Assembly (NCBI GenBank): GCA_003094555.1
Contig: NATW01000116.1
Span: forward strand, 1-64,000
Length of the DNA: 64,000 nt
Reading direction: 5' to 3'
From: a gamma proteobacterium symbiont of Ctena orbiculata
GTDB taxonomy: Bacteria; Pseudomonadota; Gammaproteobacteria; Chromatiales; Chromatiaceae
The translations under genes were made by a program, and so were the position numbers. How positions within the stretch are numbered: position 1 is the first letter of the stretch; the number at the start of each line of letters is the position of its first letter. Under the pieces are notes generated by a model. That model saw nothing but the letters and a program-made list of their open reading frames with translations, had not been told where the DNA came from and searched no databases. Positions 40,156 to 44,567 of the stretch are shown here, piece after piece.

Positions 40156-40632
40156 TCAAATAGAGTTATTGTCGCAATTAGTGGTGTAGATAGCGATAAC
40201 TCTGTCTTTGGTCACGCGCAGATTTTCCACCGCCAGCGACAGATTCTCCGGGATTCTTGTCTCTGTCCGCTGGGTGGGATAGGGATTATTGTTCTCACCG
40301 ATCAAATAGACGGTATCGCTCAACACCGCTTGCAGTGACCAGAAGGTTCCCTTCGAACCTATACCCTTGGCATTCATATCGTGAATCGCCTGCTCGATAT
40401 TATCCAGACGATACACCCGGCCATCCTCTTCGTTATACAGGATATGCTGATTACCCTTGGCATCGACACCCACGATCTTATTCACGATAACCAGTGTATC
40501 ATCCAAACCAGATGAGGCCAGGGTCATACCATCGGCGGGCATGACACTCTCGTCAGCTGTTGCCTGTAGAGACAGAAGCAACATCGTTAGCACTGTTAAA
40601 GAAGATGTTAAAAACTGTATGATAATCTTCAT
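40156..40632 (-). CDS. Secreted protein of unknown function
   Basis: A 158-residue protein with a clear signal peptide (about 1-27, cleavage near ATADES). The mature part has alternating short strands (TLVIVNKIVGVDAKGNQHILYN, GRVYRLDNIEQAIHDMNAKG) and a late Cys in TTNCDNNS. I do not recognise the family. It is preceded on its strand by GGAGG and an AT-rich promoter region and followed by a terminator-like hairpin, so it is probably a single-gene unit. Confidence 0.65.
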   Translation of the reverse strand: MKIIIQFLTSSLTVLTMLLLSLQATADESVMPADGMTLASSGLDDTLVIVNKIVGVDAKGNQHILYNEEDGRVYRLDNIEQAIHDMNAKGIGSKGTFWSLQAVLSDTVYLIGENNNPYPTQRTETRIPENLSLAVENLRVTKDRVIAIYTTNCDNNSI

Positions 40633-41047: not shown

Positions 41048-41695
41048 ATGGGGAAACATCTAATCCCGGATATCAAGGGTGTAATCTGTATCACTGCCTG
41101 TCTACCCTTGCTCTCCGCTTGCAGCGGTATTGGCGGGGTATCGGGTGACATGCCTCTAAAAGTGACAACTGAACCCAGTGGCGCCAGAATCTACATCATG
41201 GGAAAAGCGATCGGTGAAACGCCAACCACAATTTCCCAACAGCAGCTCTACCCCACGGGTTACGATGCCGGCAACCAACAGATGTACGGGACCCTGTTGA
41301 TCAAAAAGGCAGGGTGTCAGGATCTCAAAAAACGTATCCACTATCAGGACTTCAACACAGGCTTGTCAGTAAAACTCAACTGTAGTGGAACCCCGAACAT
41401 TTCAGCCAAACAGCCTATGCCCCCCGCTGCAGCAACCACTCACCCGACGACATCACAACAAGAGAGTGCAACAGCGGTTAAGAGTTCCGATTCACCGCAA
41501 AATCATGAACCCCCGGCTGATTTCAGCCCTACTCAACAAGATTTACCAGAGACTGAAAAGGCCGATGCCAACAAGGTGCCGATTGAGAATTCGATTAAGC
41601 AGCGTCTGATTCGTATCGATAACCTCAGACAAGAGGGCCTGATCACAGAAGAGGAGTATGGACAAGCCCGTAAAAGGATTCTCGATGCATTGTAA
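41048..41695 (+). CDS. PEGA-domain lipoprotein with C-terminal SHOCT motif
   Basis: A 215-residue lipoprotein. The lipobox LLSAC gives Cys near residue 25. A PEGA-like domain follows (PLKVTTEPSGARIYIMGKAIGETPTTI), then a Pro/Thr/Ser/Gln linker and a C-terminal SHOCT-type helix pair (RIDNLRQEGLITEEEYGQARKRIL). PEGA domains bind surface polymers or proteins; SHOCT helices mediate oligomerisation. The exact role is unknown. GAGGGTG precedes the start. Confidence 0.78.
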   Translation: MGKHLIPDIKGVICITACLPLLSACSGIGGVSGDMPLKVTTEPSGARIYIMGKAIGETPTTISQQQLYPTGYDAGNQQMYGTLLIKKAGCQDLKKRIHYQDFNTGLSVKLNCSGTPNISAKQPMPPAAATTHPTTSQQESATAVKSSDSPQNHEPPADFSPTQQDLPETEKADANKVPIENSIKQRLIRIDNLRQEGLITEEEYGQARKRILDAL

Positions 41696-41708
41696 GCGGA
41701 TAAAAAAA

Positions 41709-41730
41709 GCCGCTGCCTGATGGCAGCGGC
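41709..41730. terminator. Bidirectional intrinsic terminator
   Basis: A perfect 9-bp stem GCCGCTGCC/GGCAGCGGC with a TGAT loop. On the minus strand it is followed by seven T, an ideal terminator for the diheme cytochrome gene; on the plus strand a T tract follows about 10 bases later. Confidence 0.85.
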
Positions 41731-41758: not shown

Positions 41759-42421
41759 TTAGTAATTTGGTAGCAGACGCAGATAACTGATCACCCCTAT
41801 GATCTCATCTTGGGTAAGCATTTCCTTCCAACCGGGCATCAATGATTTCCCTGGCGTTCCAAAAGTTACAATCTCGATCAGATGAGAGTTTGGATGCTTG
41901 TTCAATTCAGCGCCGTTGGTATGGTCCATCGCTTTCAAGTCCAACACCTCTGCCAGGGGACCGTCACCCTTTCCTGATCGACCATGACAGGCAGCGCAGT
42001 TATCTTCATAAACCCGCTTACCCACCCGCGGGTCACCTAACAGGGGGTGCTTCGACTTTTGTAAGAAACGTATGAAGGAGACAATGGATTCGATTTGATT
42101 GCCCGGCATGGCCAATCCCCACTGGGGCATGGCGCTGGTCCCCGAACCGTGTTTCACAGTGCCCTGGATCATACCAAACAGCTGTCTGTCCGATATGTCT
42201 GAAACACTACCATCACCATCGGTCAAGTCTGCAGGGGAGACATCGAGTTTTTTAGCCAGTGGTCCTGATCCCTTGCCATCTGCACCATGGCAGAGAAAGC
42301 AAGACTGATTGAACAGGGCATAACCCTCGTAGGTATTGCCTGCGTAAGCGGAGATTGATATCAATCCGCATGCCATCACCCACGCCGCGAATCTGGTCAT
42401 TCTAGTAACAATTCTGTTCAT
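41759..42421 (-). CDS. Diheme periplasmic cytochrome c
   Basis: A 220-residue secreted protein with two cytochrome c domains. A signal peptide (about 1-27) is followed by heme sites CFLCH (near 41-45) and CAACH (near 142-146). Each domain has a candidate axial Met (SAMPQWG and SLMPGWK). The two-domain pattern resembles cytochrome c4/c553-type carriers. It is 92 bases downstream of the Cyc2-like gene on the same strand and is the obvious periplasmic partner for it. Confidence 0.92.
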   Translation of the reverse strand: MNRIVTRMTRFAAWVMACGLISISAYAGNTYEGYALFNQSCFLCHGADGKGSGPLAKKLDVSPADLTDGDGSVSDISDRQLFGMIQGTVKHGSGTSAMPQWGLAMPGNQIESIVSFIRFLQKSKHPLLGDPRVGKRVYEDNCAACHGRSGKGDGPLAEVLDLKAMDHTNGAELNKHPNSHLIEIVTFGTPGKSLMPGWKEMLTQDEIIGVISYLRLLPNY

Positions 42422-42513
42422 GAGTTACTCCTCACTTGTGTCGGGTACTGCAATCTTGCAACCGGGAAGACTGAATAAGTCAGTTGTTTATTCAACATGG
42501 CACAAGTTCTCCT

Positions 42514-43755
42514 TTAGTAACCGGCAAAGAGCTGAAACAGCCATTTACTGTCGCGCTCATCGCCTCGCGCGTCCACCCCATCCCCACTCTCTTTCACATA
42601 ATAGACTTCGAAACGGATATTCTGTGAAAATAGATAGTTCGCACCGATCGTCGTTGCGTTGAACTTCGAATCATCATCGGATCCGTCATCCAGGGTGCGA
42701 TAGGCAGCAAAGATATTCGCCTTGTTGGGCAACACACCCAACTGGGCAAGAATCCCGAATGCCTCACCGTCATCGGTATTGGTGCACTCTCGCAGAAAGT
42801 GGTCTTCATCAGAGGAACAGCTGCCGTAGCTGGCGTAGATACCCAGGGGCAGGCTGCCAACACTCCCCTGCATCTGACCGTCAACGACCCAACCGTCGGT
42901 TGCTATCAGCCTCTCACCACCTGCACCATCCGCGACTTCAGCATCACCCGACCAGAGCTGAAAGCCAAAACCGGTATCCCAGGCGCCGATAAACGGCGTG
43001 TAGGCAGCGCGTAGATAGTGGGCCAGACCGGAAGGCTTGACCTCGAGATTATGCTCTTCCCAACCCGGCACCCAGGGGGTGTAGTTGATAAAGAAATTAT
43101 GACTCGAGGCGACAAGTGCGATACCGGTTGCCTCACCACTGCCCAATCCCAACGCCTGGGCGGCACTGAAACCCCTGCGTTCCTCAATTGGCCGCTGGGA
43201 GCGCTGAGCGCCTGTATTCATCAACTCAAATCCATATGCCGCTCCCAGTCCATCGGTGGAGAAGGGTATGGCGCTGAATTGGGTATTTCCCGCTTTACCC
43301 AGATTGAAATGGACCTTGGTTGAGAGAAAGGAGTTGGCATCGGTCAATCCCAGTTCCATGAGAAAGCCGGCATCCTTTGCCAGCTTGCCACCCACCAGCA
43401 GGGCCGCTTCGTCTGGCCACTCAATGACACCGTAATCGCTACCGGCGTTGGTGTTGCCATTGCTTTTCACATAGCGCAGCTTGGTTATCACCGATGCGTT
43501 CAACATCAGCGGCAGGGAAATATCATCACCCTCGATCATGCCTTGACCACCGGTCAGTGTATAGCCGCCGGAGCGGAACGATCTGCCAAACGAGTTGAGT
43601 GCCGGAAAGTGTTGGAAATGGCAAGCGCTACAGGGCATGCCTGTTTGGCGGGCAAATGCAGGTACAGCGTCGGCCTGCTGCGGTAGCACCAACCCCCCTA
43701 TTATTATCAATATCCCCATTGCATAGCTATGCAACATCGTGAGTCTGTTAATCAT
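42514..43755 (-). CDS. Cyc2-like fused outer-membrane cytochrome-porin
   Basis: A 413-residue protein. After a signal peptide (about 1-30) comes VPAFARQTGMPCSACHFQHF followed by PALNSFGRSFRSGGYTL, a single-heme segment matching the Cyc2-family pattern FARQTG-xx-CxxCH-xxxx-P-x-L-xx-FGR. The rest is an Ala/Gly-rich, strand-forming region without other heme sites, ending in an aromatic residue (LFAGY), as in a porin barrel. Cyc2 proteins oxidise extracellular Fe(II). The substrate here is not proven; related cytochrome-porins occur in non-iron-oxidisers. GGAGAAG precedes the ATG. Confidence 0.82.
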   Translation of the reverse strand: MINRLTMLHSYAMGILIIIGGLVLPQQADAVPAFARQTGMPCSACHFQHFPALNSFGRSFRSGGYTLTGGQGMIEGDDISLPLMLNASVITKLRYVKSNGNTNAGSDYGVIEWPDEAALLVGGKLAKDAGFLMELGLTDANSFLSTKVHFNLGKAGNTQFSAIPFSTDGLGAAYGFELMNTGAQRSQRPIEERRGFSAAQALGLGSGEATGIALVASSHNFFINYTPWVPGWEEHNLEVKPSGLAHYLRAAYTPFIGAWDTGFGFQLWSGDAEVADGAGGERLIATDGWVVDGQMQGSVGSLPLGIYASYGSCSSDEDHFLRECTNTDDGEAFGILAQLGVLPNKANIFAAYRTLDDGSDDDSKFNATTIGANYLFSQNIRFEVYYVKESGDGVDARGDERDSKWLFQLFAGY

Positions 43756-44567
43756 TCGCTTCTCCAGAGAGTGAAGGCTTGTTTAACTCAGTCGTTTGTT
43801 ACTGCTTTGCGGTCATTTCGAGCTCGGCATCAAAGTCTGCCATCGATCGCCATATAACCTGTCAACGACCCCATATCGCCGGATGCTGTACAAAGCACAC
43901 CCACACGCAATATCCCGTTCGGGTTGAGATGGAAGTGGAGGATTAGATAAATGACATAACCGGAAAGTAGTCGTCCTGCTTGACCGGGAGGCTTGCAGAT
44001 AGAAGCTCAAACCAACCCTTTACCCTCTTGGCAGACATAGTTATTGCAGTATTCGAAGCGTGTTCAGACTCGCTAACAAATCGGCCTGCCTTGACACATT
44101 GAATATAAGCCCAGTTACATATTGACTGACAAATTCAATCAGTGTCCTACAGGCACCCCTTTAAATCCGATTCATTCGCAGAAGCGTTTGTACACACCCC
44201 GGCCACCCCATCCATCATCCCTTTAAATTGTGGTTAATTTACCCACTCGAGAACGACTCTCAGTTGAGCGCGCTCTCTTTTATTAATTTATGCAATATTA
44301 ATTATTGTGATTACGCTCACATTTACATTACCCCTAAGATATCAAGTTTATTATGGGTAGATACCCTACTTTTCCATATCAGCAATTACCCACATTTGAA
44401 TGATAGTTAACTGGGGTGATCACCCAGGAGAGAGGCTCAGTCCATACAATTTCACACTCTGAACTGGACTGAAACAAGCGCATCAGAGACCATTGCTTCT
44501 AGAGACCGTAAGGGATTCACACACATGACCAGTACACTCAACGTAATAGCCTGATATTACAAGAAAA
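43756..44567. promoter_or_regulatory. 812-base regulatory gap upstream of the Cyc2-like gene
   Basis: No believable gene is present. The region becomes AT-rich after 44100. A 12-bp perfect palindrome GGGTGATCACCC lies at 44414-44425. A TTGACA box occurs near 44090. The long gap suggests complex control of the divergent Cyc2-like and DUF6116 units, but no known operator was identified. Confidence 0.4.

Follow-up and report, generated by a model that had tools for sequence, protein, structure and literature searches.

The symbionts of lucinid clams and of seep tubeworms have long been described as sulfur oxidisers, and the locus described here raises the question of whether some of them also draw electrons from dissolved iron. 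Cyc2 is the outer-membrane protein by which known iron-oxidising bacteria do so. In the window, the stretch of 64,000 nucleotides of DNA that was analysed, a preliminary description had pointed to a gene for a Cyc2-like cytochrome-porin and an adjacent gene for a two-heme cytochrome. Both genes are present on the minus strand, at 42514-43755 and 41759-42421. The first has the following features:

42514-43755, minus strand: cyc2, encoding a fused monoheme cytochrome-porin of Cluster-1 type, 413 aa (ORF, motifs, relatives, trees, model and fold matches)
43642-43668, minus strand: AXPXFAR[Q/K][T/Y] signature, here AVPAFARQT, residues 30-38 (sequence; definition in PMC8406198)
43618-43632, minus strand: heme-binding CSACH, residues 42-46, with PXL (PAL) 4 residues on (sequence, alignment)
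42520-43500, minus strand: predicted 16-strand outer-membrane β-barrel, residues 86-412, with a C-terminal aromatic residue (AlphaFold2 model, OprO/OprP matches)
43782-43814, minus strand: conserved leader 5' of cyc2 (GACCGCAAAGCAGTAACAAACGACTGAGTTAAA), a possible regulatory element (alignment of relatives)

Keffer et al. 2021 defined Cyc2 by the motif AXPXFAR[Q/K][T/Y] ahead of a single CXXCH, with PXL 4 residues past the CXXCH, a minimum length of 365 residues and an OprP-like barrel of 16 strands (PMC8406198). The N-terminus of the protein is a hydrophobic stretch followed by AVPAFARQTGMPCSACHFQHFPALNSFGRSF; by inspection, this segment, which ends in ADA before VPAFARQ, is a putative signal region, and the last residue of the protein is an aromatic Y. 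AVPAFARQT, GMP and CSACH come in order, and the whole layout, AVPAFARQTG-MP-CSACH-FQHF-PAL-NSFGR, contains the FARQTG-xx-CxxCH...FGR pattern on which the preliminary description had relied. CSACH is the only CXXCH in the 413 aa, is invariant across the aligned homologues (n=72) and is followed 4 residues later by PAL (CSACH-FQHF-PAL); the length exceeds the published minimum. Every testable published sequence criterion is found in this protein, which is a Cyc2. Searches of Pfam, NCBIfam and PDB sequences left it unrecognised apart from a weak Porin_4 match, so the identification is built on the published criteria together with phylogeny and fold.

The gene is present in one copy in the genome (4.07 Mb, 99.96% complete) and is under strong purifying selection: dN/dS is 0.03-0.06 against 5 relatives, and the constraint is clear even with some dS values saturated and the ratios approximate. 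The leader directly upstream of cyc2 is also strongly kept in most close relatives, and a second conserved block lies near ATGGGGTCGTTGAC, farther upstream than the 43782-43814 leader. A distal heme ligand was sought among the 72 homologues: neither a Met nor a second His is conserved in them, and the only likely heme ligands that are invariant are Lys92 and Lys147, both in the barrel. The distal ligand would therefore not be an obvious conserved Met or His.

The AlphaFold2 model of Cyc2, made with 72 homologues, displays 16 long strands (mean pLDDT 83, pTM 0.81). Its top matches among solved folds, for which Foldseek was also run, are OprO (4rjw, Z 23.3) and OprP (2o4v, Z 23.2), aligned over ~300 residues at an rmsd of 3.4 Å. 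These are the templates that Keffer et al. give for Cyc2 of Mariprofundus PV-1 (PMC8406198), and the model thus predicts an OprP/OprO-like 16-strand porin. The cytochrome plug is modelled with low confidence (pLDDT <50 for residues 24-41). The barrel-like region without further hemes that had been proposed to follow the cytochrome corresponds to residues 86-412 of the model, beyond the single CXXCH.

We placed the protein in a 72-row maximum-likelihood tree and in a 52-row tree without long branches, both built on our own taxon sample; the two are concordant. In the 72-row tree, Cyc2 sits in a mainly gammaproteobacterial clade of 25 rows (support 100/97), whose sister contains Chlorobium ferrooxidans DSM 13031, Thiobacillus, Methylotenera, and Delta- and Nitrospirota sequences. 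Cyc2 sequences of a family coded f40, which we infer to be Zetaproteobacteria-like partly from class and cyc2 abundance, fall on the same side of the tree. Anchored on Chlorobium ferrooxidans and these Zetaproteobacteria-like sequences, the protein groups with Cluster 1 in these trees, and its cytochrome segment has hardly changed from that of Cluster-1 Cyc2. Cluster-3-like porins (CHTVFPEL) are separated from it at 100/100, and joining it to them as a generic or divergent porin was rejected (p-AU 0.0002). The protein therefore lies inside the Cyc2 clades and, with its predicted OprO/OprP-like barrel, bears out the Cyc2 identity first proposed for it.

A scan of named genomes found the nearest cyc2 loci in Candidatus Thiodiazotropha and other symbionts of lucinid clams, at up to 92% identity, and the genome is for this reason probably Candidatus Thiodiazotropha-like. 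Next come the symbionts of the tubeworms Lamellibrachia and Escarpia (67-69%). More distant, at 51-53%, are Thiocystis violacea and Thiorhodococcus mannitoliphagus, of which DSM 207 and DSM 18266 respectively are cultured carriers. Within the family, a full-length cyc2 relative occurs in 12 of 146 genomes, and one genome of the same genus is without it. In one family relative (L175 5268-5800, G034) cyc2 is decayed, with the cytochrome domain and then, in another frame, remnants of the C-terminal strands, which looks like the product of an internal deletion. In a Thiodiazotropha MAG (L080 705-1943) the frame is broken though the alignment spans the entire gene, by assembly error or decay. The 25-row clade also includes a homologue from Hydrogenovibrio SC-1 (L156 4932-6176). 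This isolate grows autotrophically on iron and also on thiosulfate, and its genome paper is silent on a Cyc2 homologue (PMC5794960); strains related to it have been reported without cyc2.

The features of the second gene are as follows:

41759-42421, minus strand: diheme periplasmic cytochrome c, 220 aa, with two Cytochrome_CBB3-type domains (Pfam, synteny)
42287-42301 and 41984-41998, minus strand: its heme motifs, residues 41-45 and 142-146 (two CXXCH)
41702-41730, minus strand: predicted intrinsic terminator of the cyc2-diheme unit, with a 9-bp GC stem, 4-nt loop and U7 (hairpin folding)

The Pfam Cytochrome_CBB3 domains are matched at E 5e-23, and each CXXCH is trailed by an invariant Met-Pro (M98P99 and M195P196) in 9 of 9 aligned relatives, which fits a pair of His/Met class I cytochrome domains. 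No c4 structure appeared among the sequence matches that could point to c4-type kinship; the best were CcoP and c6 domains. The gene has one copy in the genome, plus one weak second match, and its dN/dS is 0.06-0.14 against 5 relatives, with some dS values saturated.

It follows cyc2 after 92 bases on the same strand, with a hairpin past its end (-26.8 kcal/mol, z -4.7) that agrees with the terminator noted in the preliminary description; a consensus terminator scanner made no call at 41702-41730. Evidence for co-transcription of the pair comes from the small gap, from their position on one strand and from the terminator 3' of the diheme gene. Of 27 gammaproteobacterial loci examined (L077-L079, L081-L103 and L108), 25 have a diheme homologue directly 3' of cyc2 and on its strand; they include those of tubeworm symbionts and of Thiocystis and Thiorhodococcus, which are purple sulfur bacteria. 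This recurrence and the low dN/dS of cyc2 argue that the pairing is not due to chance. Searches of the Delta/Nitrospirota and Chlorobium cyc2 loci returned no diheme homologue, save a weaker match 909 bases upstream in one locus (L130), and in Methylotenera a single strand carries cyc2, a diheme cytochrome and a PEGA lipoprotein in sequence.

The cyc2 locus reaches past position 41759 to a third gene:

41048-41695, plus strand: outer-membrane-type lipoprotein, converging on the cyc2-diheme pair (Pfam, tblastn, HMM, model)

This lipoprotein is composed of a lipobox (LLSAC), a PEGA-like domain, a disordered linker of ~65 residues and a C-terminal SHOCT hairpin; a fold search with its model returned no significant match. 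Its dN/dS, 0.26-0.31 in 2 comparisons and approximate, is higher than those of cyc2 and the diheme gene. A gene for a PEGA-domain lipoprotein stands beside cyc2 in 20 of the gammaproteobacterial loci examined. By tblastn, PEGA-SHOCT proteins were matched at cyc2 in symbionts of lucinids and tubeworms, in Thiocystis and Thiorhodococcus, and in one further gammaproteobacterial MAG; in Thiobacillus and a Burkholderiales MAG the match is the next gene 3' of cyc2, on the same strand. Since linkers and PEGA domains are low in information, a lipoprotein HMM was first run in a single pass over 4,429 ORFs. All matches at E <0.05 lie beside cyc2, and they extend to PEGA-domain lipoproteins in Delta and Nitrospirota loci. 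Iteration raised these to 24 Delta/Nitrospirota loci, with the lipoprotein gene downstream on the same strand in 22, and additionally retrieved Methylotenera. The architectures differ, with PEGA first and then SHOCT in the gamma type, and a Lipoprotein_16-like part and then PEGA in the Delta/Nitrospirota type, so PEGA is their sole common domain.

In the Zetaproteobacteria-like genomes an unrelated lipoprotein family, in 1-3 copies, lies 3' of cyc2. Its members start with a PKLFWDxDEGTG-like sequence (L170 3373-5549, L171 4307-5736, L173 3836-4606), and we do not claim a BamC-like nature for them, as Pfam matches were below threshold and the PDB held no relative. The lipoprotein next to cyc2 thus has a different architecture in each of three lineages: PEGA-SHOCT in Gamma/Beta, Lipoprotein_16-like with a C-terminal PEGA in Delta/Nitrospirota, and the unrelated one in the Zetaproteobacteria-like genomes. 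From this pattern we tentatively suggest that Cyc2 might act in complex with a dedicated outer-membrane lipoprotein, an idea that we hold as possible and somewhat doubtful. If true, it would point to a requirement common to these lineages and so far undescribed, either for assembling or holding a barrel plugged with a heme or for escorting iron at the mouth of that barrel.

Within the family, the PEGA gene is present in each of the 12 genomes that carry a full-length cyc2, and 7 of the other 134 have a match to it, in every case weaker than the matches of the genus; as the family genomes are related, this is an association and not proof. Nor is the PEGA-SHOCT family exclusive to Cyc2, because members are found without cyc2. 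One of these (L165 5103-7633, G144) is encoded upstream of a porin gene of Porin_O_P type, from which a single small ORF separates it, hinting that PEGA-SHOCT lipoproteins may be tied more widely to OprP-like barrels. Beyond the lipoprotein gene, a 158-aa secreted protein (40156-40632) with no Pfam match is kept only in Thiodiazotropha-type loci.

The protein resembles Cluster-1 Cyc2 of Mariprofundus PV-1, Gallionellaceae and Chlorobium ferrooxidans in motif, single heme, PXL, length, OprP-like barrel and clade. It differs in belonging to a gammaproteobacterial sub-clade and in its genomic neighbours, and is ~39-41% identical to the Chlorobium ferrooxidans protein. The rus operon of Acidithiobacillus ferrooxidans has the order cyc2-cyc1-cox-rus, and so also places a diheme c-type cytochrome gene after cyc2. 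However, the partner here matches CcoP/c6-type domains, and in these sequence searches no clear kinship of the two partners was seen. The Cyc2 here is of the neutrophilic Cluster 1, and cox and rus genes are not adjacent to its gene: the genes around the pair encode the PEGA lipoprotein, an uncharacterised ORF, a hemerythrin-domain protein and a LEA_2 protein. The MtoAB, PioAB and MtrCAB conduits likewise use an outer-membrane barrel and a cytochrome to carry electrons across the outer membrane. In contrast to them, the Cyc2 here is fused, with one heme and 16 strands instead of 26, and so does not fit a conduit of MtrAB/MtoAB/PioAB type, which has a separate multiheme cytochrome and a large MtrB-type barrel.

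We consider it likely that the locus provides a Cluster-1-type Cyc2 and an electron-transfer partner for the uptake of electrons from Fe(II), a reading in which we infer the donor, the direction of flow, the redox role of the diheme cytochrome and the role of the lipoprotein. Cyc2 would be secreted, receive one covalent heme in the periplasm and become a 16-strand porin of the outer membrane, plugged on its periplasmic side by the N-terminal cytochrome. From outside, Fe2+ in solution or some other small reductant would enter the pore and pass an electron to the heme, and the ferric product would remain outside the cell. The co-transcribed two-domain diheme cytochrome would accept the electron and pass it on in the direction of the bc1 complex or a terminal oxidase, while the neighbouring lipoprotein would probably help to assemble, anchor or position the barrel. 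Where sediment contains iron, a sulfur-oxidising symbiont could use this route to supplement its supply of electrons, and the free-living stage is the most plausible time for it.

Uptake of Fe(II) electrons is favoured by the Cyc2 criteria, the Cluster-1 grouping, the Hydrogenovibrio SC-1 homologue, the synteny in 25 of 27 loci, the dN/dS values and the activity of Mariprofundus PV-1 Cyc2, which is assigned to the same cluster and oxidises Fe(II) in vitro (PMC8406198). Counting against it, cyc2 transcripts in Thiodiazotropha-rich mangrove sediments are very low (4.94 TPM, Gammaproteobacteria; PMC12400630). Another electron donor is also possible, given that sulfur oxidation is what the majority of close relatives are known for.

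A protein that is a true Cyc2 by descent could have been repurposed in these gammaproteobacteria for another soluble donor, such as reduced sulfur species or reduced organic shuttles, with the same pore and heme. The named members of the clade mostly oxidise sulfur (symbionts of lucinids and tubeworms, Thiocystis, Thiorhodococcus), and the diheme and PEGA-SHOCT neighbours set the clade apart from Delta/Nitrospirota loci. However, the cytochrome segment is hardly altered relative to Cluster-1 Cyc2 and the iron-grown Hydrogenovibrio SC-1 carries a clade member, which makes repurposing rather unlikely. It is unlikely, too, that the locus serves iron handling and not energy, oxidising Fe(II) at the surface against Fenton damage or to mobilise the iron of iron sulfides and disposing of the electrons. 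This would suit the patchy distribution of cyc2 (12 of 146 family genomes, with one of the same genus lacking it) and the decayed copy in one relative, but a dedicated diheme electron carrier is retained next to cyc2, and Cyc2 is not among known iron-homeostasis genes.

Redox proteins are reversible, and the hosts inhabit oxic-anoxic interfaces, so the porin-cytochrome could conceivably pass periplasmic electrons outward to extracellular acceptors when oxygen is limited. We regard this as very improbable: a single heme in a narrow pore is unlikely to contact solid acceptors, and characterised Cyc2 proteins take up Fe(II) electrons at positive potentials (208 mV for PV-1; PMC8406198). That the protein is instead a divergent porin like those of Cluster 3, with an iron function not assured, can practically be dismissed: porins of that kind have the FARQTG-CXXCH start too and are frequent in Gammaproteobacteria, but most Cluster-3-like sequences have PXL 3 residues after CXXCH where this protein has 4, and the 100/100 split and the p-AU given above stand against joining them.

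The preliminary description had regarded the uptake of electrons from an external donor such as Fe(II) as not normally expected of a lineage with this gene content. This does not hold for the gene: orthologs in the same lineage of lucinid symbionts, named Ca. Thiodiazotropha, are already reported and used in dating by Tamre & Fournier 2025 (PMC12442345), and the cyc2 described here adds to the known family. In the passages covered, that study treats the Cyc2 protein only, with no partner, lipoprotein or tubeworm/Chromatiaceae synteny found in it, and states that iron oxidation has not been demonstrated in lucinid symbionts. Neither the pairing of cyc2 with the diheme gene in tubeworm symbionts and in purple sulfur bacteria nor the recurrent lipoprotein neighbour of cyc2, including PEGA with cyc2, was found in the literature searched, which excluded most subscription journals.

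If the locus works as we propose, symbionts of lucinid clams and seep tubeworms and some purple sulfur bacteria could also use electrons from dissolved iron during at least part of their life. Iron and sulfur use would be joined in one organism, which would bear on the dating of iron oxidation with Cyc2 genes (PMC12442345). With the diheme and lipoprotein neighbours there are concrete candidates for the steps that surround and follow Cyc2, steps that the Cyc2 literature describes as largely unknown (PMC8406198). The f40 genomes, finally, contain recurrent open frames of ~85-125 aa that encode a cytochrome segment like that of Cyc2 but are too short to hold a barrel as well (for example G221:C21:22140 and G189:C1:19319), and these are possible stand-alone mini-cytochromes.
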